Assembly: GCF_024498195.1 (NCBI RefSeq)
Contig: NZ_CP101824.1
Span: 806,001-870,000 of the forward strand
Direction: 5' to 3'
DNA length: 64,000 nucleotides
Origin: Halovivax cerinus
Lineage (GTDB): Archaea; Halobacteriota; Halobacteria; Halobacteriales; Natrialbaceae
Positions 1,271-52,440 of this stretch are shown here, piece by piece. A program made the translations under genes and the position numbers. The notes under the pieces are model-generated. The model was given only the letters and a program-made list of their open reading frames with translations, had not been told where the DNA came from and did not search any database. Position 1 is the stretch's first letter; every line of letters begins with the position of its first letter.

Positions 1271-1325
1271 ACCCCACCCTACTCGCTCACGGCTTCGCCG
1301 TTCGCTTCGTTGAGGGTGGCGCTTT
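1271..1325 (-). ncRNA. Putative omega-RNA / right-end hairpins of the tnpB element
   Basis: CCACCCT at 1274-1280 pairs with AGGGTGG at 1313-1319. Inside this, ACGGC (1289-1293) and GCCGT (1297-1301) form a second stem with a TTC loop. The structure overlaps the 3' end of tnpB. In IS200/IS605 elements the right end in this position carries the scaffold of the guide (omega) RNA. Stems are seen directly; the RNA role is inferred from the family. The guide segment would read outward, toward the symporter gene. Confidence 0.5.
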
Positions 1326-2565
1326 CGCGTGGACTCCCGTTCTGGCCGCCGTCGGCGGCAGGCTCGTATTCGCCGTTCACGTTCAACGTCCCGCGATTCA
1401 AGCGCACGTTTACGGGTGCGCCTCCACCCGACGACTTTTGCGCCGAGCGGAGATGCTTCAGACCGATATTCTTCGCCGCGTTATAGTCCGCGTGCGGTGA
1501 GTACCCGCACTTCAGACACTCGAACACGTCCTGTCCGTCCGAGGTCGGGCGGTTGTTCTCGTGAGTGAATCCACACTTGGAACACCGCTGGCTCGTGTAC
1601 GCAGGACTCACCTGTTTAGCCGAGATACCAACCATCTCGGCCTTATACTCGACGTACTCGAACAGGCGTCGGAACGCCCATGCGTGGAACTTCTTGGCAC
1701 GAGGCATCCGCTCACGAATCCCCGTCAGGTTCTCAAACGCGATTACGTCACAGTCGTGTTCGACGGCTTCTGCGACGAGTTCCTTCGAGACAGTGTGTAA
1801 GAAGTGGTTGTAGCGACCTGTCTCGGTACGCCCGACCGACTGGATGGTTTCGTGAGCGGCCCGCGTTCCACGCTGTTGAAGCGAGCCACGTCGTTTCTCG
1901 AACTCGCGGTGCCAATGGTTCAACTCCGACCCGTTCCAGAACGTCCCTGTGGAGGTGACGGCGACGTTTTCGATGCCGAGGTCAACGCCGAGGACTGTTC
2001 TGTGCTCGTCGTTGCCTTCGTCGGCAGTCTCGGACTCCACGTCCGCCGTTGTTCGGACGTGAAGGTAGAAATCGCCGTCGCGGTAATGGAGTTCCCCGCC
2101 CGTCACTTCGTAGTCGTCGCTGAATAGGTACTCCGAGTGGGGAGTCTCGCGACTCTCGTCGGGAAGAACGTACTCGGCGATGATGCGTCCTTCGACGGTT
2201 GAGAGCGTTGCGTGGTCGTCGTTGAAGGTCGCACATCGCTTGTCGTAGAAGAGGGTCGGGGCGGTGAAGTGCGGTTTCCCCGCGTAGTCACCGTGCTTCC
2301 ACCGAGCGACGACGCTCTGTACGGCGTCGGCGGCCTTGTTGCGGGCGTTCTGGACGAGGTTCGCTTGAAGCCTCGTTTCGTCCCGAACGTCGTCGTAAGT
2401 TTCGCGTTGAAGTTCGGCTTTGCTCGTAGTCTTGTACTCGCCTTGCCATGCGTGGTCTACGACGTAGTTGGCGGCCCACAGGAACTCGGAAATGGTTTCG
2501 TGGCGGCGGTCGGCGTCGCTGTCGGCCACGTCGAGTTTGACGGGGACGGTGCGACGTACCTCCAT
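1279..2565 (-). CDS. tnpB: TnpB, RNA-guided nuclease of an IS1341-type (IS200/IS605) element
   Basis: The 428-residue protein has the full TnpB layout: an N-terminal helical/OrfB region, a split RuvC fold, and an embedded zinc ribbon. The RuvC acidic residues are D195 (GVDLG), E278 (FENL) and D360 (DYNAAKNI). The zinc ligands are C328, C331, C350 and C353. All appear intact, so the protein may be an active RNA-guided DNA endonuclease. No tnpA transposase accompanies it, which fits the solitary IS1341 type common in haloarchaea; mobility would then need TnpA in trans. The C-terminal tail (about residues 375-428) is polar and probably disordered. The stop codon lies within the right-end hairpin region. 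Confidence 0.95.
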
Positions 2566-2823: not shown

Positions 2824-3300
2824 TCACGCACCGCTTCGTTCGATCGTTTCGAGGACCTTGAGTGTGAGTTCGTTCGCCGTGAGTTCGTTCGACTCGTAGC
2901 GGTCGTACCACTCTCCCCTCGCGTACCAGGTGATGGTCTCGTCGCCCTCCAGCGACGCGTCGGCGTTCAGCCTCGTCGCGGCCCACCCTGCTCCGAGCTG
3001 TTTGAAGTAGAAGCCGCTGATGCGTCCGATCTGATCCGCGAGCCGCTGATAGTGGCGCTTCGGAGTCGTATACTCGAGGCGCACGGTCGGGCGGGTCGAC
3101 GCGAGCGTGTCGACCGTCAGGTCCAGTTGAGAGAGATCCCGCTCGAACGCAGTCAGGTACGACCGCCCATCACTCGCGTTCTTCGGGCCGGTCGAGCGTG
3201 CTGACGACGGTGCATCAGCTGCGTCACCGCCGGTGCAACCGGCGAGGCCCGCCGCGACGGCGGGGACGACGCCGGCGACCAGCAACCGTCTTCTGTTCAT
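2824..3300 (-). CDS. Exported lipoprotein of unknown function
   Basis: The 158-residue protein starts MNRRRLLVAG, with twin arginines and a lipobox ending LAGC about 20 residues in. It is therefore probably Tat-exported and lipid-anchored. A longer reading frame extends upstream, but this ATG places the signal sequence at the N-terminus and is preferred. A Ser/Asp/Ala-rich linker follows, then a mixed alpha/beta region rich in Tyr and Trp (FYFKQLGAGW, ITWYARGEWYDRY). No family was recognised. It follows the dockerin/cohesin operon on the same strand, with its start 44 bases after that operon's last stop codon, so co-transcription is possible. Confidence 0.75.
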   Translation of the reverse strand: MNRRRLLVAGVVPAVAAGLAGCTGGDAADAPSSARSTGPKNASDGRSYLTAFERDLSQLDLTVDTLASTRPTVRLEYTTPKRHYQRLADQIGRISGFYFKQLGAGWAATRLNADASLEGDETITWYARGEWYDRYESNELTANELTLKVLETIERSGA

Positions 3301-3343: not shown

Positions 3344-4141
3344 TCAGGTACGCCCGCCGTGGGCAACCAGCGCGGTCAACGCGATGGCCAGCAGCGCGAC
3401 GGTCACGCCGAAGCCGGGGATCCCGTCGCCGGAGCTATCGGACCCGTCTGACCCGTCGGATCCATCCGATTCGTCACCGGAACCGCCCGCGCCGTCGGAG
3501 CTCCCGTCGCCGCTGGCGTCGTCGGAACCGCCGTCACTCGAGCCATCGCTCCCGCCTGCCTCGTCACCGCCGCTATCGTCACCGCCCCCGGGCGGCGCGG
3601 GCGGCAATCCGCCGCCACCGCCGCTCTGGACGGCGATCGAATCGCCGGTCCCGGAGACGGGAATGTCGTTGCCGTCCGCGTCGGTGAACGTCGAGATCTC
3701 GACGTCGATCGACGCCGACTCCGTCGCGTTCACTCCCGTCGTCTCGACGTCGAACAGCGGTCCGTCGCCGTCCGGGCCGGTCTCCTGTCCCGTGTAGCCC
3801 GTGACTCTGAGTTCGCCCTCACTCGGCGTCGAAGATTGCACGTCGAAGGCGCTGTCCGCATCACGGGTCGCCGCGAGCGTTATCTTCGACGGATCGTACG
3901 TGAGGGTGATCGTGAACGAACCGACGCCTTCGGCATCCGTCACGTCTTCGAAGTCGACGTCACCGACGACCGTCTCGTTCGTCCCCACGGAATCGGGCGT
4001 GTCGACGACGACCGACGCTCCGGTCTGGGACGCCACGGTCCCGATGCCACCGGCCGAGAGGGCCGCGGCGCCGACCGCGATCACGACGACCAGTACCAGC
4101 GCGCGCCTCGTCCGCTGTAGTGTTCCTGCCATGTCACTCAC
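3344..4141 (-). CDS. Cohesin-like surface protein with PGF-CTERM anchor
   Basis: Residues 1-38 form a signal peptide. Residues about 40-165 form a beta-rich module starting ASVVVDTPDSVG and containing VGSFTITLTYDPSKI, the pattern of cohesin domains (the dockerin-binding beta-sandwich of cellulosomes). Residues 175-235 are an extreme Gly/Ser/Asp linker typical of haloarchaeal cell-wall spacers. The C-terminus, IPGFG followed by a hydrophobic helix and a basic tip, is a PGF-CTERM signal for archaeosortase A, so the protein should be lipid-anchored at the surface. The GTG start overlaps the upstream stop as GTGA (4138-4141), implying translational coupling. An ATG three codons further in is the alternative start. 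The cohesin call is by pattern only. Confidence 0.8.
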   Translation of the reverse strand: MSDMAGTLQRTRRALVLVVVIAVGAAALSAGGIGTVASQTGASVVVDTPDSVGTNETVVGDVDFEDVTDAEGVGSFTITLTYDPSKITLAATRDADSAFDVQSSTPSEGELRVTGYTGQETGPDGDGPLFDVETTGVNATESASIDVEISTFTDADGNDIPVSGTGDSIAVQSGGGGGLPPAPPGGGDDSGGDEAGGSDGSSDGGSDDASGDGSSDGAGGSGDESDGSDGSDGSDSSGDGIPGFGVTVALLAIALTALVAHGGRT

Positions 4142-5400
4142 GTTCCGCTGTAGTCCGCGTTTCGGTTGTCGTTCGCGTACTGTGCGATGTACATCGCGTC
4201 GACCGCCGTCACCTCGCCGTCACCGTCCACGTCGTAGTACGTCGTGCCCGCACCCTGGCGGGCAACCTCGGACGCGACCGTGTCGGCGTCGTCCGAATCG
4301 ACGGTGCCGTCCGCGGTCACGTCACCGAGGCGATAGCCGTCGAACGTGACGGTAACCATCGTGTCGTCAGCCGCGTCAATTCTGGCGTTGGTCACGGTAC
4401 CGGTGTCAGTCAGCTCGATCGTTCCCGAGTCGACCAGGCCCGTCCGGTCGCTCACCGGGCCGACGGCGGACTCCGTCGGGACGGCGACGACCGCCGTTCC
4501 GCCGGCGGTCTGCAGGAGAAAGCTCACGTCTACCTGCCGAACCCGCTCGGCCGTCGGCGATTGGGCCTCCACCTGGCTGGTCGATCCCGCGAGCACCCCT
4601 GCGGTTCGATCGGTCGCGACCACGGTCGGATCCTGGAGTGCGTCGGGGACGGTGTAACTAACCGACGTGGTGTCTCCAACTCCGATCGTCCGCTCGAACG
4701 TCGGGAGCGTGACCGGGGATCCGTCGGGTGCCTCCGCAGACACTTCGTACGTCCCCTCGACGCGGTCGACGGCAGCCGCACCCGACCCGACGGATTCGCC
4801 GTCTACCAGCACGTCCGCGTCCGAGATCTCGTTCCCATCCGGATCCGCCACGGTCGCGGTCAGCGTTCCGTACCCGTTCGCTGTCACGTCCTGTTGGGTC
4901 CGCGCCGTGACACTCGGGTCGTTCTCGTTGTAGAGCAGCCGCGTCTCGGCCTCGACCGTCGCGGTGCCGGGTTGGTCGATCGAGACGTTCACGTAGTAGG
5001 TGTAGGCCTCGCCCTGCGGGACGTTCTCCCCGAAGAGGAACACCGCGTCTCCGTCGCCGATCGAGCTGGACTGGATCTCGGCGTCGTTGACCGGTTCGGT
5101 CGTTCCGTCGGGGTACTCGACGTACGCGCGCTCCAGCGCGTCCTGGGATACCGAATAGGCGTCCGGCAGTGCGAGCTCGACGATGGGGCTGAACAGGTCG
5201 CTCTCCCCGTTCGTGTTGTCCATCGTCACGCCGATCGTCTGTCCGTCGTCCGCGACCAGTCCGTCACCCGTCTCGATACTGATCTCGTATCCCTGTTCGG
5301 TCGATCCATCCTGCGCGACCGCCACGCTCGCCGTGAGAAGACAGAGCGCGAGCGTCGCGGCGACGACCAGCGCAGGGAGCTGCGTTCGCACGGTCGACAT
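4138..5400 (-). CDS. Secreted dockerin-domain protein
   Basis: The 420-residue protein has an N-terminal signal peptide (hydrophobic segment ending SVAVAQ, about residue 30). The central region is beta-rich, and around 190-280 it contains a carboxypeptidase-regulatory or Ig-like repeat (ATVADPDGNEISDADVLVDG). The last 65 residues form a type I dockerin: two calcium-loop repeats, DVTADGTVDSDDADTV and DVDGDGEVTAVDAMYI, each with Asp ligands at loop positions 1, 3, 5, 9 or 12. Dockerins bind cohesins, and the next gene encodes a cohesin-like protein. The ATG overlaps the stop of the giant protease gene by one base (TGATG, 5398-5402). Dockerin assignment is strong; binding partner is inferred. 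Confidence 0.9.
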   Translation of the reverse strand: MSTVRTQLPALVVAATLALCLLTASVAVAQDGSTEQGYEISIETGDGLVADDGQTIGVTMDNTNGESDLFSPIVELALPDAYSVSQDALERAYVEYPDGTTEPVNDAEIQSSSIGDGDAVFLFGENVPQGEAYTYYVNVSIDQPGTATVEAETRLLYNENDPSVTARTQQDVTANGYGTLTATVADPDGNEISDADVLVDGESVGSGAAAVDRVEGTYEVSAEAPDGSPVTLPTFERTIGVGDTTSVSYTVPDALQDPTVVATDRTAGVLAGSTSQVEAQSPTAERVRQVDVSFLLQTAGGTAVVAVPTESAVGPVSDRTGLVDSGTIELTDTGTVTNARIDAADDTMVTVTFDGYRLGDVTADGTVDSDDADTVASEVARQGAGTTYYDVDGDGEVTAVDAMYIAQYANDNRNADYSGT

Positions 5401-8400
5401 CAGGCGTCACCTCCGTTCCTGACGTACTCGGTCTCGTCGATCAGCTGTTCGTTCGAGACGCTGGCGACGACGAGCCCCGTTCCGTCGCTCTCGACCGTCA
5501 GTTCGAGCGTCTCGGAACTGTTCCGCAGTTCCTGGAGCGTCTGGTTGTCCGCACCCGAGAAGCTGATGGTCTCGAGCGTGACGTCGCCGCCGATCTCTCG
5601 GGACTCGTTTATCAGCTCGGTCTGTCCGTCGCTGATCGTGACGGTTACCGTTTGCGCGTTGGTCTCGCTCGTCGTCGTGGCCTGCAACGCCTCGATGGCG
5701 ATCGCCGTCGCGCGCGTGTACCCCCACGAGCCGTCCTCCTCGTAGACCGTCCGAAGGTAGCTGTTCGCGGTCTGCACCGTCGCGTTCGTGGCGTCGACAC
5801 CCGCGGCGTCGAGCGCCAGCACGGCGTGGGCGCTCGTCTCGCTCACCGTTCCCTGCCAGGCGAAGGAGTTCGAGTCGTGGTACGGTGACCACGAACCGTC
5901 GGCCTGCTGGGTGTCGGTGAGGTACCCGACCCCGTCCGCCGCTGCTGCGTCGACGGCGGACTGGTCGACGCCGGACAGGTCGTCGGGTGCGGTGGCGAGC
6001 CCGCGGATCGCCAGTGCGGTGGCCATCGCGGATTCACCGTCGTCACCGTCCCAGGAGCCGTTCGCGTTCTGCTCGTCGAGCAGGTAGGAGACCGCGTCCG
6101 CGCGAACGTCGTCGACCACGGTCGCGTTCGCGCCCGCCTGCTCGGCCTGTTCGAGGCCGATGAGCGCGAGTCCCGTCATCGACCGCCTGTCGTCGTAGTA
6201 GTGGTTCGCCTGGAAGCTCCCGTCGCCGTTCTGCGTGCCCTCGATCCACTCGGCGGCGGCCGTCCGGTCGATGTTCGCGAGATCGTCGCCGACGGCCGTC
6301 CTGTCACCCTGCACCGGGTCGTTCGCGACTTCGGACGTCCCGTAGAGCGCGTAGACGGTGTAGAACAGGTCACCGGACGGATCGTTGCCGTACATGCTCC
6401 AGGCGCCGTTGTCGTGTTGTGCGGCGGCACCGTCTTCCGGTGCGAGCCTGTCGACGCCCCCGGCGATCGAGTCGTTGATCTTCTGTCGATCGTAGTCGAC
6501 CGTCGTGTTCCGGTAGTACTGGTCGGTGTTGAGCGCGGTCAGCATCGGCGACGTGGTCTGCTCGACGCAGCCGTACGGGTATCTGACCAGGTAGTCGAGG
6601 CCCTTGAGGGTCCGACCGCTCGTCCCCGCCTGCAGGTCGATCTGCAGGTCGTGTTCGAAGGTCGTCTCGGTGCGAACCTCGAACGCGATCGAGCTCGTGT
6701 TTCCGTCTTCGATCGTCGTGGCGTTGTCGTCGCCGACCCTGACCTTGGGCACGGTGACGTTCGTCGACGCATCATCGGTCGCGCGCTTCTCGAAGGCCTC
6801 CGCGATCACGGTCAGCTGCTTCTGGGTGCCCTGACCGCCTTCGGCGGTGACCTCCCACGACACGTCCCTCGTACCGTCGACGTACACCTGCCTGGACCGC
6901 TCGTCGACGACCGAGAGGCCCTCGGGCGTAGAGAGCGTCGCGTTCACCGTCTCGCCGACGTTCGCGCCGACGGTCGAACTCACGTAGAACGTCGATCCGT
7001 TCTCGACGCTCGCGGGAACGGTGGTGTCCGAGACCGAGACCTGGTACGGCCGCACGCTCAGTTCCGCCGACGACTCGTTACCGGCGGGGAACAGCGTATC
7101 GCCGTTCACGGCGAGGTCGACGGTCGCGTTCTCGGCCGTCACCTGGAACGAAGTCGTGTTCGCAGCGCCGGGGGTGAGCGACGGCACCGTCAGCGTCCGT
7201 TCGCCGCCGTCTATCATCGGCGTCTGTAGCGACGCCGTCAGTTCGTCACTCGACGCGTCCCCGGCGTTTTCGAACACGACGTACATCGTCGTGTCGGCGC
7301 CCTTGATCTCGCGATCGGGGACGGCCAGTCGCGTCCTGATGTCGCTGTAGGTCACGCGCGTGGTCGTCGAGGCGTTGTTGTTCTCCGCACTGACCTCCTC
7401 GACGTCGGTGTCAGCCGCGGCGGCGGCCCGAATCGAGAGGTCACCGGTCAGCCGGTTCGACTGGGCGAACGCCGTCAGGTCGATCGTCTCGGTGCGTTCG
7501 TCGCCGGCCGCGAGCGAGTCGACGGAGACGGTCCGCGACTCCGTGAGGGTCCCGTTCGTGGCGGTCACGTCGACCTCGAACGGAGTATCGTACGTCGCGG
7601 CACCGTCGTTGGCGACCGTGACGTTCGCGGTTACCCCGTCCTGGAGGCGCTGTTCGTCGGCGACGTCGAGCGTCGTGACGAGGTCTGGCCCCTCGACGAC
7701 GGTCACGGTGATCGTTTCGCTCGCCGCGTTTCCGGCGTTGTCGGTCACGGTGACCGTGATGTTCTTCTCGCCGCTCTCGGCGAACGTGAAGGCTGCTTGC
7801 GGGCTGTCCTGCGTTGCTTCGCTCCCATCAGGTGCCGTGAACGTGTAGTTCGCGATCCCGCTGCCCGCGTCGGTGCTCGCGCTCGCGTCGACGGTGATCG
7901 TCTCGTCGACGACGGCCTGCGAAGGCGCGTCGACGCGGACGGTCGGCGGCGTGGTGTCCTGGCCCCCGTCGCCGTCCGATCGGAGTGCGATCGTCACCGA
8001 CTCGTTCTCCGTAACGTCGAGGCGTCGCGTGTAGTCGTCGTGTTCGTCGACGTACTCGCTGTCGCCCTCGGGCGGCGCAGCGCGGATGGTGACGTTGTCG
8101 GCGAGTTCGATGCCCGTATCACCTGTCGCGGTAGTGACTCGGCCGTCCGCGTTCGTTTCCGTCACGGCGACGTATCCCGTCGCCCCGTGGGGCTGTGTGC
8201 CGTGGCTTTCGGCTTCGAGGTGGGCTCCCGATACGGGATTACCCGACTCGTCGACGACCTGAAGTTCGACGTGGTGGCCGTCCGGGATCGTGTGCGTTCC
8301 GACGTCGACGTCGGACCGGAGCGTGTCGACAGACGCGATCCGGTAGAGGTCGACGACTCCGTCGGTCTCCCCAGGCGCTTGCGAGAACGCGACCTGGTAG

Positions 8401-11400
8401 GGGTTGCCCCGGGGGACGCTGACGGAGAAGTTCCCGTCGGCGTTCGTCTGGCTACTGTTCCCGGTCGCCTCCTGACCCGATCGATGCAGGGCAGAGACGT
8501 ACTCGCCGGCCGCTGGCGTCCCGTCGGCGAACTGCACGGTTCCGTTGATCGCAGCTTTGGAGACGACGCGCATCGAACTGAAGGCGGCCTCCGAGTCGGC
8601 GGTCGACTCGGTCGCGTAGCCGGCGCGCAACAGGACGTAACCGGTGTCGAACTCGTCCGCGAGGTCGGGCGAGATGGTGAACGAGGCGGTCCCGTTCTCG
8701 TCGGTCGTGGCGATCGACGCGTTTCCGGCAGCCGTATCCGTCCCGTCCGCTCCCGCCTCGATGTAATAGAGTGGGATCGTCGCGTCCGGAACCGGGTCGC
8801 CCGTGCGGTCGGTGAGGGTGACCGTCACGTTCGCCGTCGATCCGGCGGACACCTCGTCCGGCGACGATATGTGGGCGGTGAGCCCGCCGACAGAGAGCGC
8901 GTCGTACCCGCCCCAGCTGTCGGTTCCGAGACTGGTTCTGACCGAGTACTCTCGCTCTTCGCTCGCCGGCACGGACTCGTCGAACGCGCGCGAGACCCAC
9001 GTGTCGTCGGTGCCGTTGCCAACGTACCCGACGAACACGTCGCGCTGCGTGTCGTAGTCGCCGTCGGGCGCGCCGAGTTGGACGAGCGTCGACGTCGCGT
9101 TCGTCCGCTCCCAGGTCGACTCGTTACGGTACGTGACGTTCAGTCCGAGCGATCCGGTGTCTTCGTCGTAGGAGAGTTCCGGCCGCGTGATCACGCCCGG
9201 CTGGTCGTCCGATCCGTCCTGTACCTCGTCGACGTAGGCGTGGGCGGACGTCCTGTCACGTACCGCGTTCCCGGTCGGGGTCCTGAGGCCCTCGGCGATC
9301 GCCAGGATCTCCTGGCTGTGGAACTCGTCCGAGACGTTCCGGTAGTCCAGATCCGGTGCCGGAATCGACGTCTCAACCGTGCCGGAATCGTCGGTCGTCA
9401 CGGTCGTCGTCTCCCCGCCGGTCGTGTACAGCACGACCTCGGTGTTTGCCACCGGGTCACCGGTCTGACCGTCAGCCAGTTGGACCGTGAGGTCTATCGA
9501 CTCGTTCGGAAGGGTCCATCCGTTCTTCTGGTACTCTCGCCAGTCCGCGTAGACGTCCAGCTCGTACGTATCGCTCTCCTCGGGATCGGACGGCGTCCGT
9601 GTAAACTCGTCGATCCGCTGGTCGACGAACACCATCGCGTTGTTCTCGTAGACCGACGCAGTTTCGGTATCTATCGCCGGGTCGTTCGGCTCCACGGTGA
9701 CGAAGCCGACGCGTGCGTCCTCTGGCGGTGATACGTCGACGTCACCGATCCCGTTCGAGGTCGGCGAGACGTTCGTCTCGGTCGTGACGGGGACGACTCC
9801 CTGCGCCGAAACGTTCTCGATCGCGGCGTCGATCGCCTCGTACTGTTCTCTCGTCAGTGGATCCGCCGTTCCTCCATCCTCCCGCTCCTTGGCGAGTGCC
9901 TTCGCCACGGAGTCGGGGAGTTCGCCGTACAGCGCGGCGGTCTGGCGGTCGGTGAGCCACTGCACCCGCGCGGTCGAATTGACGTCGCTCGGGGTTACGT
10001 GCTGCTGATCGATCTCGCCGGACCCGGTCCGCCGTTCGACGGTCTGGAACGTCAGCGCGGTCGAGGTCCCCGGCGAGGTCACCTGACTCTCGGGGTACAG
10101 GGTACTTTCGTACGCCACGCGTCGGTGGACGCGGACGGACCCGGCCGATTGCGTCTCGTCCGTCGCGGTGAAGTTCGACGCAAAGGCGACGTCGAAACCA
10201 ATGAAGTCACTCCCTCTGGACGCGTCGACGAGATCCGCGTACTCGTCTGGCGATACCGTCGTCGTGAACACTCCGTTTTCGACGGTGAGGTTGTCGAACG
10301 TCGTCTCGTTCTGGTTCCCGGCGAGACGCAGGGACGCCTGACCGTCGTACGGCGATATCGATCCGTCCTCGATCGTGTACACCGGGACGTTTACCTCGAA
10401 CGAGTCGTTCATGCGTGCCTCGTAGTTACGCGCCACGACGGTTCGATCGGGCGGATCGGTACCGCCGTCGCCGATCGTCGGACCGTCGTCGACGTACGGC
10501 GGGTTGACGGTGTACGTCTGCGAGACGAGATTACCGTGACCGTCTTCGATCTCGATCTCGAACTCGCTGTAGGAACTCCGATCGGTGTTGAACGAGGTGT
10601 TGGCGATGCCCCGCGCGTCCGTCCGGACCGTCTCGTTCGCGACGAGTTGGCCGCTGTCCTGGTCCCACAGGCTAAACTGGAGCGGCTCATCGGTCGCCGG
10701 CCCGCCCGCCGTCGCGTTCCACGCCACGCCAACGCCGGGGACCGTCACGGGATAGGATGTGTCCACCTGGCCGTCGTTCGGCAGCCGATCCGACGCGGTC
10801 CGTTCGTCGTCGGCCGCGACGACGTGCCAGTCGAATTCCGACGTGTTGATCCCGTACGAATCGGTTCTGACGTCGAAATCGACGTATTCCGGGTGGTCGT
10901 CGAAGGCCCAGTCGTTGACGTGTGCGAAGGAACTCTCGGTTGGTTCGAACGTGACGCCCGATTCGTTGTAGACGTACGTCTCCGCGGATCCGTCGTATAG
11001 CTCCCCGTCGAACGTCCTGGTGACGTTCACGCGATACTCGGCACCGTCGTATCCGGGGTGACCGGTCGTGTCGTCCCCGTCGGCATCGAGGTACGCGGTG
11101 AACGTCGCGTTCGGGGCCGTTGCGTCCGCCATTCCGATCTCGAAGTTGGCGTAGGTCCCGTCCGCGATCACTGCCCCTGCTTCCAGGTCGGGCGCGACTC
11201 CGCCGGCGTCTCCGACGGTATCCGCCACGGGATCCTGGTCTACGTACGCATTGGATTGGTCCGTGTAGCCGATCCCCGCGTACAACTCCCGCACGCCGGA
11301 TTCGGGCTGATCACCCGGCAACTCCTCGGCCGTGACGCTATCGACGGCTGCGTACGCGTCGAGCGCGCCGGCACCGATCGCGCTCTCAGGTAGCGGCGCC

Positions 11401-13280
11401 GGTTGGGCGGTCGACTCCAGCGTCGATTCGATCGTCGAACGGTCCAGCGACGAATCGGCCCCGAGCATCAGCGCGATCGTTCCGCTGACGTGCGGCGCGG
11501 CCATCGACGTCCCGCTCTTGCGCGTGTACGGTTCCGCACCGGTGTGGACCTGCGTCGAGCCCGCCGATTCGACGTCGACGCCGGGTGCGATCAGGTCGAT
11601 GCCGGGCCGCGTGTCCGCGCCGAAGCCGACCGGACCGCGACTCGAGAACGGTGCGACGTCGAGCGAGTCGGGCATGCTGGCCCCGACGGTTATCGCGTTC
11701 TCCGCGACGCCCGGTGAGCCGATGGTCCGATTACCGAGTTGCCCCGCGTTTCCGGCCGCGATCACCGGGATTGGCCCCGTCGATTCGAGATTGTTTACGG
11801 CCGCGGCGACTTCGTCGGTCCCGTCCGGCACGTAGGCCGTCGTGGCGGTCACCGCCGCGGTGACGTTCCCGTCGTTGTCGTTGGCGAGTTCGACCGACCA
11901 GTTCCCCGGATCGAGCGTCCGGCTGGTCGACGGCGTGAACTTGTACAGGAGCTGTCCCTCCGGGACGGTCCCGGTTTCGAACGCGAAGCCGCCGTCGTAC
12001 CGTTCGAGCGTCTCGTTGCCGTCCGGATTCCGCAGCGTGACTGAGAGGTTCTCCGTCACGGCGGCCGGCGTCTCCTCGGGGTTACTCCCCTCGTAGGAAA
12101 CCCCAGAAACGTCGACGAACACGGACGCGGGCCGGTACGCGTCGGCGACGGTGGCGTTGACCGACGAGCTTTCGTTCGCCGTCGAGTGTACCGCGACGGT
12201 CGTATTGGTCGACTGGCCGGGTCCGACCGTCTCGTCCGTGTTCGTCTGGGTCGGTATCGGGTCGAATCCGAGACTGGCCGACGCGACGTCGGCGCTCTGG
12301 TTCGCACTCCACTCGAACGCGCTGATCACGTCCGAGACGTGACCGCCGCCGCTACTGTCGAGGACGCGCGCGTCCAACAGGTCCGCACCCGGGGCGACGC
12401 CGACCGCCTGCTTCGCGTCTCGCTGGCCAGCGATGGTCCCGGCGACGTGGGTCCCGTGTCCCTGTGGATCCCCGGTCGTGTTGTCGCCGACGAAGTCCAT
12501 CCGATCGACGACCTGTCCCTGGAGGGCGGGATGGCTGTCGTCGATACCCGTGTCGATGACGCTCACGGTGACGCCCTCACCGGAGATGCCCGACTGGTGG
12601 ACGCTATCCGCGCCGATCTCTTCGATACTGTCGACGCGTTCGCCTGACGTCTCTCGCTCGAAGTCGTCCGGCGTCGGCGTCAGGTTTCCGAACTGCTCGA
12701 GGCGCTCTCGGAACTCGTCGAGGCCGGAGTGGCCGGTCTCGTTCAGGGCCGACACCCGGCCGTCCAGAACGACCTCGTCGACGACCGCGCTGCGTGCCAC
12801 CTCCCGGATGACGTCTTCGGTGGCTTCCACGGCGATCGCGTTCCGCAGGTACAGCGACGTCACGTCGTCGACACGGCCGCGCTGTTGCTGGCGTTCCAGG
12901 TACTGCATCGTCGGGCCCTGCGTGTCGGCGGCCAGCGCCTTCATCCCGCGCTTCGCCTCGGCACTCGAGAGGCGATTCAGTTCGAGTTGGTCCTCCGGTT
13001 GCGTCCGCAGGACGAGGATAACTGGTACCGTCTCGCCGGCACCCCCGTCGTCGAGCCTGGCCTGCACCGCCGACGATAGCTTCGCGTCCGCCGTCCCGGT
13101 CGCGGGCGAGTTCACGGACCCGGCCTGTCCCAGACCGGCCTCGACCGCCTGCGTCGATCGGTCGGCGGCGGGAGCCCCAACTCCGCCGCCAGCCATCGCC
13201 GCGGATGCGACCGGTGACAACGCCATCGTCACCGCGAAGAACACCGCCAGCAACCGCGTAGAATAGCCCAGGTACGTCAT
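5400..13280 (-). CDS. Giant secreted subtilase fused to alpha-2-macroglobulin-like thioester module
   Basis: The product has 2,626 residues. Start 13280 is chosen because it places a signal peptide (MTYLGYSTRLLAVFFAV...) at the N-terminus. An I9-like propeptide is at about 80-200. The S8 catalytic domain is at about 235-640, with D243 (VIDTGID), H275 (GHGTH) and S592 (SGTSMAAPH), and carries a beta-rich insert between H and S. A DOMON/CBM9-like region follows, then a long series of Ig, MG-like and CARDB-like beta domains. The C-terminal 450 residues resemble alpha-2-macroglobulin: an A2M segment, then the thioester motif YPYGCVEQTTS (C2238, Q2241) opening an alpha/alpha toroid with repeated GxGSW/F turns. 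Bacterial A2Ms trap foreign proteases by a bait region and thioester; fusion to a protease is unusual. It heads a coupled operon with the dockerin and cohesin-like genes. Confidence 0.93.
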   Translation of the reverse strand: MTYLGYSTRLLAVFFAVTMALSPVASAAMAGGGVGAPAADRSTQAVEAGLGQAGSVNSPATGTADAKLSSAVQARLDDGGAGETVPVILVLRTQPEDQLELNRLSSAEAKRGMKALAADTQGPTMQYLERQQQRGRVDDVTSLYLRNAIAVEATEDVIREVARSAVVDEVVLDGRVSALNETGHSGLDEFRERLEQFGNLTPTPDDFERETSGERVDSIEEIGADSVHQSGISGEGVTVSVIDTGIDDSHPALQGQVVDRMDFVGDNTTGDPQGHGTHVAGTIAGQRDAKQAVGVAPGADLLDARVLDSSGGGHVSDVISAFEWSANQSADVASASLGFDPIPTQTNTDETVGPGQSTNTTVAVHSTANESSSVNATVADAYRPASVFVDVSGVSYEGSNPEETPAAVTENLSVTLRNPDGNETLERYDGGFAFETGTVPEGQLLYKFTPSTSRTLDPGNWSVELANDNDGNVTAAVTATTAYVPDGTDEVAAAVNNLESTGPIPVIAAGNAGQLGNRTIGSPGVAENAITVGASMPDSLDVAPFSSRGPVGFGADTRPGIDLIAPGVDVESAGSTQVHTGAEPYTRKSGTSMAAPHVSGTIALMLGADSSLDRSTIESTLESTAQPAPLPESAIGAGALDAYAAVDSVTAEELPGDQPESGVRELYAGIGYTDQSNAYVDQDPVADTVGDAGGVAPDLEAGAVIADGTYANFEIGMADATAPNATFTAYLDADGDDTTGHPGYDGAEYRVNVTRTFDGELYDGSAETYVYNESGVTFEPTESSFAHVNDWAFDDHPEYVDFDVRTDSYGINTSEFDWHVVAADDERTASDRLPNDGQVDTSYPVTVPGVGVAWNATAGGPATDEPLQFSLWDQDSGQLVANETVRTDARGIANTSFNTDRSSYSEFEIEIEDGHGNLVSQTYTVNPPYVDDGPTIGDGGTDPPDRTVVARNYEARMNDSFEVNVPVYTIEDGSISPYDGQASLRLAGNQNETTFDNLTVENGVFTTTVSPDEYADLVDASRGSDFIGFDVAFASNFTATDETQSAGSVRVHRRVAYESTLYPESQVTSPGTSTALTFQTVERRTGSGEIDQQHVTPSDVNSTARVQWLTDRQTAALYGELPDSVAKALAKEREDGGTADPLTREQYEAIDAAIENVSAQGVVPVTTETNVSPTSNGIGDVDVSPPEDARVGFVTVEPNDPAIDTETASVYENNAMVFVDQRIDEFTRTPSDPEESDTYELDVYADWREYQKNGWTLPNESIDLTVQLADGQTGDPVANTEVVLYTTGGETTTVTTDDSGTVETSIPAPDLDYRNVSDEFHSQEILAIAEGLRTPTGNAVRDRTSAHAYVDEVQDGSDDQPGVITRPELSYDEDTGSLGLNVTYRNESTWERTNATSTLVQLGAPDGDYDTQRDVFVGYVGNGTDDTWVSRAFDESVPASEEREYSVRTSLGTDSWGGYDALSVGGLTAHISSPDEVSAGSTANVTVTLTDRTGDPVPDATIPLYYIEAGADGTDTAAGNASIATTDENGTASFTISPDLADEFDTGYVLLRAGYATESTADSEAAFSSMRVVSKAAINGTVQFADGTPAAGEYVSALHRSGQEATGNSSQTNADGNFSVSVPRGNPYQVAFSQAPGETDGVVDLYRIASVDTLRSDVDVGTHTIPDGHHVELQVVDESGNPVSGAHLEAESHGTQPHGATGYVAVTETNADGRVTTATGDTGIELADNVTIRAAPPEGDSEYVDEHDDYTRRLDVTENESVTIALRSDGDGGQDTTPPTVRVDAPSQAVVDETITVDASASTDAGSGIANYTFTAPDGSEATQDSPQAAFTFAESGEKNITVTVTDNAGNAASETITVTVVEGPDLVTTLDVADEQRLQDGVTANVTVANDGAATYDTPFEVDVTATNGTLTESRTVSVDSLAAGDERTETIDLTAFAQSNRLTGDLSIRAAAAADTDVEEVSAENNNASTTTRVTYSDIRTRLAVPDREIKGADTTMYVVFENAGDASSDELTASLQTPMIDGGERTLTVPSLTPGAANTTSFQVTAENATVDLAVNGDTLFPAGNESSAELSVRPYQVSVSDTTVPASVENGSTFYVSSTVGANVGETVNATLSTPEGLSVVDERSRQVYVDGTRDVSWEVTAEGGQGTQKQLTVIAEAFEKRATDDASTNVTVPKVRVGDDNATTIEDGNTSSIAFEVRTETTFEHDLQIDLQAGTSGRTLKGLDYLVRYPYGCVEQTTSPMLTALNTDQYYRNTTVDYDRQKINDSIAGGVDRLAPEDGAAAQHDNGAWSMYGNDPSGDLFYTVYALYGTSEVANDPVQGDRTAVGDDLANIDRTAAAEWIEGTQNGDGSFQANHYYDDRRSMTGLALIGLEQAEQAGANATVVDDVRADAVSYLLDEQNANGSWDGDDGESAMATALAIRGLATAPDDLSGVDQSAVDAAAADGVGYLTDTQQADGSWSPYHDSNSFAWQGTVSETSAHAVLALDAAGVDATNATVQTANSYLRTVYEEDGSWGYTRATAIAIEALQATTTSETNAQTVTVTISDGQTELINESREIGGDVTLETISFSGADNQTLQELRNSSETLELTVESDGTGLVVASVSNEQLIDETEYVRNGGDA

Positions 13281-13693
13281 GTCCCGTACCACCTTCGGGC
13301 AGTCCACTGTGCCCACCTCGTTCGCGTCGTGTGATCGACGTATTGCCTGCTCATCGAACGGATGACAGAAACGGAGGCCCTTAATTCTTATCGCTCCGAA
13401 AGACAATCTTCTGAGCTAGAATGTTGGGGAAATTTTCTAGTGTTACGAATCATTTACGCCTACCCGATCGAACGATTCTATCTCAGAACCTCGTACAGCC
13501 GTTTAGGTTGTTTTGGTTGTCACAATTTCCTGTAGTTATAGATAATCAATGGTTGTGGAATGAATAGCGGACGGTCGAAACGTACCAGAAGGGAACACAG
13601 CAACAGGCATCCACTATCCGATCCGTTCCGTCGGCTCGCAGACAATCACCGCCGAAACGATCGCGTACCGAGATCACACTCAGCGATCGATCG
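13281..13693. other. Gene-free promoter region of the giant protease operon
   Basis: There is no convincing gene. The first 200 bases upstream of the protease start are AT-richer than the surroundings. They contain the inverted repeat CTAGAA (13416-13421) / TTCTAG (13435-13440), a candidate operator about 140 bases upstream of the start codon. The rest shows nothing I can name. Confidence 0.4.
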
Positions 13694-49399: not shown

Positions 49400-52168
49400 T
49401 CACTCGTCCGCTGGCAGCCCGGGACTCGAACGCCCACTCCCTGGCGCGCGCTGGCCGGGCGGCGAGACGTAGAACGTCGGCGACTCCCAGGTGTCCCAGT
49501 GGGCGGGATTCTCGGGGTCGCCGAGGGTGCGGAGCGCCTCGAGGGTCAGGGTGTACCGGCCCTTCGGGACGGGGCGACGACCGTCGCTCTCGCCGGCTTG
49601 CGTCCGACCGTCCCAGGCGTACTCGTAGTAGGTCTCGGGGTCGGGACTCCGTGGTGCGTAGGTCTGTTCGAGGACGGTGAACGACTGGCCGGTGCGTTCG
49701 TGCTCGGCCGTGATCCGCAGTTCCTGCGGGTAGTGACCGAAGAAGGCCTCGACGACGGCGACGGTCGCGGCGTCGTCGACGGCCTCGCCTTCGTCGACCG
49801 ACCGCTGCAGGCGCGGTTCCATCGCGACGAAGTCGTCGGCCGCGGCGTAGTAGCCGAAGAGCGGGAGGTCCTGGTAGTTGCCCTCGTAGCCGCTGTAGGG
49901 GACCCGGAGCGTGTCGTGGGCCTCGTCGGTCGGGGTGAACGTGACGTAGCCGCCGTACTGGTGGTTCGGGAGCCCGTACGCCGGCGCCGAGATCGTCAGG
50001 TCGACCGAGGCCGACTCGCCGGCGGGTACCGTCACGGTCTCCGGCCCCGATACGCTGCTGTCTGGCAGGTAGAACCCGGGCGAGAAGGAGTTGCCGGCGG
50101 TGCCGACGGTCCCCGCGTGGCCGAGTTCGTAGGTGACGTCGGTCTCGCCGTCGTTGGTGAGCGTCACCGTCGCGTCGGCACCGGTGCCATCGCCCAGCGA
50201 GAGCTGGCCCGGGGTGGCGCGCTGATCCGCCGTGATCGTCTCGTCGATCTGAATCATGCCCGCACCCTGCCGGAAGGAGTGATCGAGGTAGCCGGCGTCG
50301 GGGGCGAGCGACCACGGCTGGGGTTCGGCCACGTTCTGCAGGCGATCGCGGACGTCGATGGGGTCGAGGTCGGGTTCGGCCTCGAGCGCCAACGCGACGC
50401 TGCCCGCCACGTGTGGCGCAGCCATCGACGTCCCCGAGAGCATGCCGTAGCCGCCGAATTCGAGCGGGTAGGTCGACGTGATCAGCCCGCCCGGCGCGGT
50501 GACGCTCGGCCCGAAGGCGAGTTCGACGTCCTGGCCGTACGAGGAGAACGACGAGAGCAGGCCGCCGTTGGGGTTCGGGACGGTGACCGTCTCGTCGGTG
50601 AAATCGAGGGTGACCGTCTCGCCCGATTCGAGCAGGTCGACCAGCGCCGCTCCGCCGGTGTCGCTGATTCCGGCGCCCCAGACGCCCTCGACGCCGGCGT
50701 CCTGAATCGTCCCGCTGAACAGCCCGGCGACGTTGTTGAAGATGACGACGCCCGTCGCACCCGCAGCGACGGCGTTCTCGTACTTCTGGGCGAACGCGCA
50801 GTGCCCGCGCTGGATCAGGGCGACGTGGCCCTCGGGGAAGTCGGCGAAGTCGGCCGGATCACAGCCGAAGTAGCCAGCTTCACCGCCGATCTCGCTCTGG
50901 GCCGGCAGCGCCAGTGGCGCCGACTCGCCCTCGGTCGGCGGGAGCTCGGACCCGGAGAGTTCGAGGTACGGGACCGGTTCGTCGAGCCCGGGAACCCCGA
51001 AGGCGGTGGCCGTCAGGTGGGTGTTCTCGGCGCTCGCGACGCTGATCACGTCGTGGGCGTTCGCCGGCGCGCTCAGGCTCCAGGCACCCAGATCCGCCTC
51101 GTTCCCGGCGGAGTTGACGACCACGACGCCCTGCGAGACGAGTTCGTTGCTCGCCGCCGTCGTCGGGTACGCCTGGCCCCACTGCAGGCTCGCGCCGAGC
51201 GACATGTTGATGACGTCCATCCCGTCAGCGTAGGCGTCCTCCATCGCGGCGACGATGATCTCGGCGGTGCTAGAGCCCGTGTCGAAGATCTTGTACGCGC
51301 CGAGGGTCGCGTCCGGCGCGACGCCCGTCACGCCGTCCTCGTCGGCCGCGTCGGCGCCCACGATGCCGCTGACGTGCGTGCCGTGACCCTGCGGGTCCAT
51401 CGGGTCGGGGTCCGGGTTCGGCTCGTCCGCCTCCGGATCGCCCGCGTCGTAGCCCGCGCCGACGTAGTCCCAGCCGTGACTGATCCGTGGGTGAACGTCG
51501 CCTGCGGGGCCGGTGAGCGTCCGGTCGGCCTCGCTCTCGGCGGTGTAGGCGGCCGACTGGTCACCGCTCCCGCCCAGGTCGGGGTGGTTGTAGTCGATAC
51601 CGGTGTCGATCACCGCGACCGAGCGACCGTCGCCCGTGAGGCCGAGTTCTGACTGGGCGGCGTCGGCGCCGGTCATCGACAGGGCGGTCTCTAACATTGG
51701 CGAGGTGTCCACGGGTTCCGGGCGGTCGACGATCGCGACCGGGTACACCGCGGCGACGCTGTCGAGCGCGCTCATCGCCACCGCGTCGCCGAACTCGGCG
51801 CTGACCGAGAGGCCGTTCCACAGGCGGGTGAAGTCGCGGCGCTCGGTGACGCCGAGGCCCTCGGCTCGCACGTCGGCGCGGAACCGGGCCCGTTCGTCCG
51901 CCTGGGCGGCCGATTCCCCGCCCCGTACTCGCGGGTCGGTCTCGAACGCGACGAACCAGCGGTCGCGTGCCCACCGATCGGACGCCCCCTCGCGGCCGTC
52001 CCACGGCGGTTCCCGATCCGGGTCGATCGGGTCGGGGGTCCGTGCGTCCCGTCCAGTTCCCGAGACGGTTCCGAACACCGCCCCGAGGCCCGCGACGCTC
52101 GCGAGTTTCATGGCAGATCTGCGGTCGAGGCGATACGCGCTGTCGTCTTCGTCTGTGTTCCGTGTCAT
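49400..52168 (-). CDS. Tat-exported subtilase with PA-domain insertion
   Basis: The product is 922 residues from the ATG at 52168. The Tat signal reads RRSAMKLASVAGLGAVFG. An I9-like propeptide spans about 55-160. The S8 domain has D188 (VIDTGIDYNHP), H262 (GHGTHVSG) and S581 (SGTSMAAPH). A protease-associated (PA) domain is inserted before the Ser (YFGCDPADF... CAFAQKYENAVAAGATGVVIFNN), as in lactocepin and C5a peptidase. Two fibronectin-like beta domains and a short beta-rich tail follow, with no surface anchor. It is likely a free halophilic protease. It starts 276 bases from a bat-type regulator gene on the same strand. Confidence 0.93.
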   Translation of the reverse strand: MTRNTDEDDSAYRLDRRSAMKLASVAGLGAVFGTVSGTGRDARTPDPIDPDREPPWDGREGASDRWARDRWFVAFETDPRVRGGESAAQADERARFRADVRAEGLGVTERRDFTRLWNGLSVSAEFGDAVAMSALDSVAAVYPVAIVDRPEPVDTSPMLETALSMTGADAAQSELGLTGDGRSVAVIDTGIDYNHPDLGGSGDQSAAYTAESEADRTLTGPAGDVHPRISHGWDYVGAGYDAGDPEADEPNPDPDPMDPQGHGTHVSGIVGADAADEDGVTGVAPDATLGAYKIFDTGSSTAEIIVAAMEDAYADGMDVINMSLGASLQWGQAYPTTAASNELVSQGVVVVNSAGNEADLGAWSLSAPANAHDVISVASAENTHLTATAFGVPGLDEPVPYLELSGSELPPTEGESAPLALPAQSEIGGEAGYFGCDPADFADFPEGHVALIQRGHCAFAQKYENAVAAGATGVVIFNNVAGLFSGTIQDAGVEGVWGAGISDTGGAALVDLLESGETVTLDFTDETVTVPNPNGGLLSSFSSYGQDVELAFGPSVTAPGGLITSTYPLEFGGYGMLSGTSMAAPHVAGSVALALEAEPDLDPIDVRDRLQNVAEPQPWSLAPDAGYLDHSFRQGAGMIQIDETITADQRATPGQLSLGDGTGADATVTLTNDGETDVTYELGHAGTVGTAGNSFSPGFYLPDSSVSGPETVTVPAGESASVDLTISAPAYGLPNHQYGGYVTFTPTDEAHDTLRVPYSGYEGNYQDLPLFGYYAAADDFVAMEPRLQRSVDEGEAVDDAATVAVVEAFFGHYPQELRITAEHERTGQSFTVLEQTYAPRSPDPETYYEYAWDGRTQAGESDGRRPVPKGRYTLTLEALRTLGDPENPAHWDTWESPTFYVSPPGQRAPGSGRSSPGLPADE

Positions 52169-52440
52169 GGCTCTCAACCTGGGGGATCACGGCGACCGGC
52201 ACCGTCGGCGGGACAGGGGTCAGTCGTGTCCGAGATCCGTAGTGCCAATCTGGCGTGATAGTCATTTATACCCATACACTATTATAAGAAGCTATGGTAA
52301 TTTTTCCATGAAATGATAGCTTTCGGGGTGGCTGGAGTGGCCGGATGCGCCGCACGACGACTGACCCGTCGAGCAGATACCGGTCGACGGACTGATCGAC
52401 GGCGTCCGAGCGTGTGGAGGACCCGGAAAACGGAACCGGG

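Follow-up and report, generated by a model that had tools for sequence, protein, structure and literature searches.

A conserved archaeal operon brings together a macroglobulin-like thioester protein, a dockerin-bearing protein, and a cohesin-containing surface anchor, and its products probably form an A2M/TEP-like covalent-capture complex fastened to the cell surface through a cohesin-dockerin joint. The operon was analyzed in a 64,000-nucleotide stretch of the Halovivax cerinus genome (contig NZ_CP101824.1, positions 806,001 to 870,000; hereafter, the window), where the thioester protein is a secreted giant that also carries a subtilase domain. The recurring core of such loci is the thioester protein, the dockerin protein, and the cohesin anchor, joined in haloarchaea by a lipoprotein. 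Non-cellulosomal cohesin-dockerin pairs and macroglobulin-like thioester proteins, both so far unexplained in archaea, meet here in one operon that is conserved in haloarchaea and methanogens.

Operon organization and protein domains

The genes and domains of the operon, all on the minus strand of the window, are as follows.

5400..13280 (-), giant secreted protein, 2626 amino acids (aa) from the ATG at 13280; the open reading frame (ORF) is open to a TTG at 13406
11313..12581 (-), Peptidase_S8 domain of the giant (Pfam, 152.9 bits, above the cut-off)
8670..8828 (-), macroglobulin MG4-like stretch of the giant (Pfam, 34.7 bits; cut-off, 24.7)
7698..7952 (-), PKD domain of the giant (PKD_4, 39.6 bits, above the cut-off)
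5706..6605 (-), A2M/complement-type thioester domain (TED) of the giant (TED_complement, 45.5 bits, above the cut-off)
4138..5400 (-), dockerin protein, secreted, 420 aa (from ORF reading and Pfam)
4882..5283 (-), beta-sandwich at the N terminus of the dockerin protein, similar, in fold only, to the A2M/C3 receptor-binding (MG8) domain
4177..4329 (-), dockerin type I module with two EF-hand-like repeats (Dockerin_1, 33.8 bits; cut-off, 22.9; the model shows two helices)
3344..4141 (-), cohesin protein, 265 aa, with a signal peptide, a Gly/Ser/Asp-rich linker, and a C-terminal PGF-CTERM-like anchor
3626..4030 (-), cohesin module (Pfam Cohesin and structure model)
3359..3433 (-), PGF-CTERM-like sorting signal, IPGFGVTVALLAIALTALVAHGGR (TIGR04126, 22.6 bits; cut-off, 24.5)
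2824..3300 (-), fourth gene, predicted lipoprotein of about 158 aa with an LAGC lipobox-like motif, kept beside haloarchaeal loci

The original prediction for this DNA described three overlapping genes, and both overlaps are real. The stop codon of the giant overlaps the ATG of the dockerin protein (TGATG at 5400), whose own stop codon overlaps the GTG start of the cohesin gene (GTGA, 4141); an alternative ATG for the latter lies 9 nt downstream, at 4132. The fourth conserved gene, encoding the lipoprotein (3300-2824), had been overlooked and begins 43 nt past the cohesin-gene stop. A promoter scan was set aside, as it looks for sigma-70 sites and is not applicable to archaea.

The domains that had been assigned to the three proteins are present: the S8, TED, and Dockerin_1 matches all score above the Pfam cut-offs, and the cohesin was recognized through its fold. 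The giant consists of a signal peptide, the subtilase, a region resembling immunoglobulin (Ig), macroglobulin (MG), and PKD domains, and the A2M thioester domain. Its subtilase contains the VIDTG, GHGTH, and GTSMAAP motifs in the correct Asp/His/Ser order, which by motif match places the respective residues at D243, H275, and S592 (numbered from the ATG at 13280), with an insert between the His and the Ser. The thioester motif, YPYGCVEQTTS, includes C2238 (codon 6569-6567). CVEQ is found in every haloarchaeal thioester protein aligned, and the thioester-domain profile matches the Salmonella and Escherichia coli A2M proteins at the thioester.

Identification of the cohesin relied on structure because a sequence search of the protein against PDB found no cohesin and returned antibody linkers as matches to the glycine-rich linkers. 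Most of the class-wide matches of this protein were likewise discarded, as they cover just the low-complexity linker and the C terminus. The Pfam Cohesin score is borderline (22.6, with a cut-off of 24.1; the genome search gave 24.4, above it), and the question was therefore settled by the predicted structure. The model, built from a 32-sequence alignment, has a predicted local distance difference test (pLDDT) score of 92.5; its best VIA-align match in PDB has a Z score of 17.5 (1.9 Å over 132 residues), nearly all of the 50 best rows are cohesins, and so are the best Foldseek rows. The Archaeoglobus fulgidus cohesin (2xdh) is matched with a Z score of 16.0, and when profiles of the anchors are compared with those of the multi-cohesin modules from the same genome, the probability is 90.6. 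Thus, the earlier call of a cohesin-like protein withstood the fold check that might have refuted it. As for the anchor itself, its orthologues at loci L061 and L078 pass the PGF-CTERM model (Pfam ID PF18204).

In the dockerin, loop 2 keeps D1, D5, and D12 in eight aligned haloarchaeal members, and loop 1 is partly degenerate in some of them. The structure model of the whole protein (pLDDT, 88.7) suggests that its N-terminal sandwich may be an A2M receptor-binding-like domain: the best fold matches are the C3 C-terminal domain and the A2M receptor-binding domain (Z scores of 12.9 to 12.4). Integrin, transglutaminase, and cohesin sandwiches score about 1 Z unit or less below the C3/A2M match and other beta-sandwiches score 11 to 12.4, several top matches of the protein are pilins and adhesins, and a search for sequence-profile support for a receptor-binding domain found none. 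The resemblance is attractive because the sandwich comes right after the thioester domain in fused forms of the protein, as described below.

Conservation and gene fusions in haloarchaea and methanogens

A thioester-domain search of 391 haloarchaeal genomes identified 13 loci in 11 genomes from 5 genera; Haloferax gibbonsii ATCC 33959 (G111) has two such clusters. Full-length matches to the dockerin protein (E < 1e-140) are found exactly at those 13 loci, all others being partial and weak. The thioester giant comes first, followed by the dockerin protein and then the cohesin protein, and most junctions measure -8 to +9 nt; the gene set is not a chance one since this order and these tight junctions recur across the haloarchaeal loci. 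The synteny across Halobacteria with which the original prediction was to be checked therefore exists for the thioester/dockerin/cohesin set.

The subtilase is less constant. The S8-A2M fusion, originally described as part of the triplet, is present in the window and, among the haloarchaeal loci found, nowhere else; at the other loci, S8 is a separate neighbor or is not seen. A separate S8-dockerin gene adjoins Haloferax cluster B, and a divergent S8 gene adjoins the locus in genome G376. The window S8 is closest, among the relatives compared, to the cluster B neighbor (42% over 614 aa) and aligns along its length with the methanogen S8. The N-terminal part of the thioester protein varies: the window has S8, Haloferax cluster A and G308 have a PQQ propeller and PKD, Haloferax cluster B has CARDB, G328 has MG2, and G376 has twelve PKD domains.

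Lipoprotein orthologues adjoin other haloarchaeal loci, upstream or downstream and on either strand. The wider family is found in 202 of 242 haloarchaeal genomes, with operon-linked members scoring highest under a model built from some of them. Because the family is so widespread, the lipoprotein is a companion of the locus and not a marker for it.

Fused forms point to the origin of the split in the window. A single 2322-aa ORF encodes both the thioester protein and the dockerin protein in G376. The same is seen outside the class Halobacteria in 12 loci, here called methanogen loci, L083 (Methanogenium marinum) and L210 to L220: the thioester domain and then the dockerin-protein domain share one ORF in all 12, and this ORF usually ends in a dockerin-like part. 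Nine of the 12 loci have an S8 gene directly upstream of the ORF, and directly downstream in most of the 12 is a cohesin-like protein of about 250 aa with a C-terminal transmembrane segment. Because both parts are encoded in a single ORF in G376 and the methanogens, the dockerin protein, which the original prediction listed as a separate product, looks like the C-terminal part of an A2M-like protein that has become detached, rather than independent cargo. By the same comparison, the window giant is apparently a fusion of two genes that are neighbors elsewhere, with its tail split off, since S8 and the thioester-dockerin protein are encoded by adjacent separate genes in nine of the methanogen loci.

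Two other genes recur in these neighborhoods. A further protein of 1000 to 1400 aa with a C-terminal transmembrane segment follows the cohesin-like gene in most of L083 and L211 to L220, and a gene for a DUF1616 membrane protein lies near thioester loci of both haloarchaea and methanogens (L081, L061, L063, L064, L080, L083, L211 to L213, L215, L216, and L218).

The putative surface complex and alternative functions

Assembly of a surface complex is well supported. Gene order, coupling, domains, the cohesin fold, conservation, and fusions are all observed; that the dockerin binds the cohesin, that the thioester forms, that the protease is active, and what the complex is for are predictions. 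The giant would supply the thioester domain and, in the window, the fused subtilase, and the dockerin protein, as the separated C-terminal part of the A2M-like body, would carry the dockerin. This dockerin would fit into the lipid- or membrane-anchored cohesin, which would keep the complex on the cell surface. The CVEQ thioester could then covalently bind incoming proteins, be they foreign proteases, toxins, or other secreted proteins, and the subtilase might either activate the thioester through limited cleavage or degrade the captured protein. The proteolytic-trap function suggested by the original prediction is likewise an inference. If the capture mechanism is true, archaea would have a surface thioester-plus-serine-protease system akin to a simple complement or A2M trap. 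For experiments, the operon offers a specific pair of proteins predicted to bind and a covalent reaction that is likewise predicted, and Haloferax gibbonsii, which has two copies, could serve as a test organism.

Several observations weigh against covalent capture as just outlined. The MG-domain architecture is recognizable only in part: of the MG string expected before the TED, MG4 is found in the window and MG2 in G328, the region being otherwise mostly composed of other Ig/PKD/CARDB-like domains. A bait-like hypervariable stretch was sought in the Haloferax orthologues and none was found; the cluster A alignment shows a single dip, to 71% across 60 columns. Haloferax cluster A, the G328 locus, and methanogen locus L220 show no S8 gene nearby (the G308 locus is at the end of a contig), none was recognized at L219, and at L217 a non-S8 cohesin-dockerin protein occupies the place of S8; with some haloarchaeal and methanogen loci showing no S8, the protease is not obligatory. 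Finally, the methanogen dockerins are degenerate, and other cohesins in the H. cerinus genome could be the partners of the window dockerin instead.

A different view of the locus sees it as a satellite of a protease system resembling a cellulosome. The dockerin protein would then plug into a multi-cohesin scaffold encoded elsewhere in the genome, the complex would digest environmental protein, and the thioester would just tether substrate or matrix. The same genome does contain a 22-kb cluster coding for five dockerin-bearing subtilases and an eight-cohesin surface protein. However, this scaffold is full length in this genome alone among the 194 sampled, the thioester locus is conserved together with a cohesin anchor of its own, and several thioester loci show no protease, all of which makes such nutritional proteolysis decidedly improbable. 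An adhesive or structural role, in which the thioester, like that of Gram-positive thioester adhesins, bonds covalently to other cells or to surfaces, the cohesin-dockerin pair is a stalk, and the subtilase is a maturation protease, would account for the variable, adhesin-like N-terminal parts (PKD, CARDB, and PQQ propeller) and for the pilins and adhesins among the top folds of the dockerin protein. Yet the thioester domain matches the A2M/complement family, no Gram-positive thioester-adhesin family is among the Pfam matches, and we regard this role as unlikely. That the dockerin and the cohesin are unrelated surface modules, sharing a transcript merely as envelope proteins and forming no mutual complex, would fit the wide distribution of dockerins and cohesins with unclear roles in archaea (PMC9012536), but is very hard to reconcile with their strict co-occurrence and order in the 13 haloarchaeal loci, the parallel methanogen arrangement, and the tight or overlapping junctions; we give this explanation hardly any credence.

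A more specific form of the covalent-capture proposal is a minimal complement-like archaeal system. Here, the dedicated subtilase would act as a convertase on a thioester protein docked at the surface, and the thioester protein thus activated would covalently mark or trap foreign proteins, with the cohesin-dockerin joint holding it in place and, in the window organism, convertase and thioester united in one polypeptide. Complement C3 and its serine-protease convertases likewise pair a thioester protein with a dedicated serine protease, but the protease here is a subtilase, whose fold is unrelated to that of the trypsin-like complement convertases, and activation is a proposal. We offer this version as a speculative and unlikely one.

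Relation to known systems and neighboring genes

Bacterial A2M proteins (Salmonella 4u48 and E. coli YfhM/ECAM) have a thioester motif, YPYGCxEQTTS, that aligns with that of the giant, but differ from it in length and N-terminal domains. To our knowledge, they have neither a protease fusion nor cohesin-dockerin anchoring.

Archaeal A2M/TEP homologues with CxEQ were reported in 2021 in Halobacteria and Methanomicrobia, Haloferax gibbonsii ARA6 being one example, with endoproteases and surface proteins encoded nearby (Makarova et al., PMC8416519). They are the same class of TED/CxEQ protein as the window giant; the text of that report contains no occurrence of cohesin, dockerin, or subtilisin and mentions no split of the protein. 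To this, our analysis adds a cohesin anchor and a dockerin subunit, gene fusions, and the combination of S8 and thioester in a single protein. A literature search found no publication linking macroglobulin with cohesin or dockerin in archaea, which is weak evidence, as most subscription papers are outside its coverage. Hence, of the novelty originally claimed, the cohesin-dockerin link to A2M was not found in the literature searched, whereas the location of archaeal A2M genes near endoproteases was already known (PMC8416519).

Archaeal cohesin-dockerin pairs have been reported to bind, including a discussion of anaerobic methanotrophic archaea (ANME), with unclear roles (PMC9012536). The window anchor has the same cohesin fold as these non-cellulosomal modules (A. 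fulgidus 2xdh; ANME), but its predicted cargo is a thioester protein of A2M type, and the modules are conserved as a defined operon. The cellulosome and the mucinolysome (PMC12997984) likewise have a surface cohesin holding a dockerin-bearing partner. A cellulosome reading was nevertheless rejected, as the operon has a single cohesin and no carbohydrate-active enzyme, with no glycoside hydrolase match among its proteins in Pfam.

The protease cluster of the same genome (G000:C1:468000-492000; L024:8000-17527 and L025:889-13932) encodes five subtilases with C-terminal dockerins, some also with cohesins, together with a cohesin-dockerin protein, a cohesin-CARDB protein, and the eight-cohesin protein (1258 aa), which has a PGF-CTERM-like end. 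Judging by these domain combinations, it is a putative protease-based, scaffoldin-like system. A terminal dockerin-like module is also found in a PhoX-like protein (L026:1525-4152; G000:C1, about 3257524-3260151), with a score of 20.5 bits, under the cut-off, and above it in the genome search.

Elsewhere in the window, a TnpB-like gene (OrfB_IS605, with a Cas12f1-like TNB domain) lies directly downstream of the operon at 1279-2565 (-), and a second S8 protease, with PA and fn3 domains, is encoded at 49400-52177 (-).

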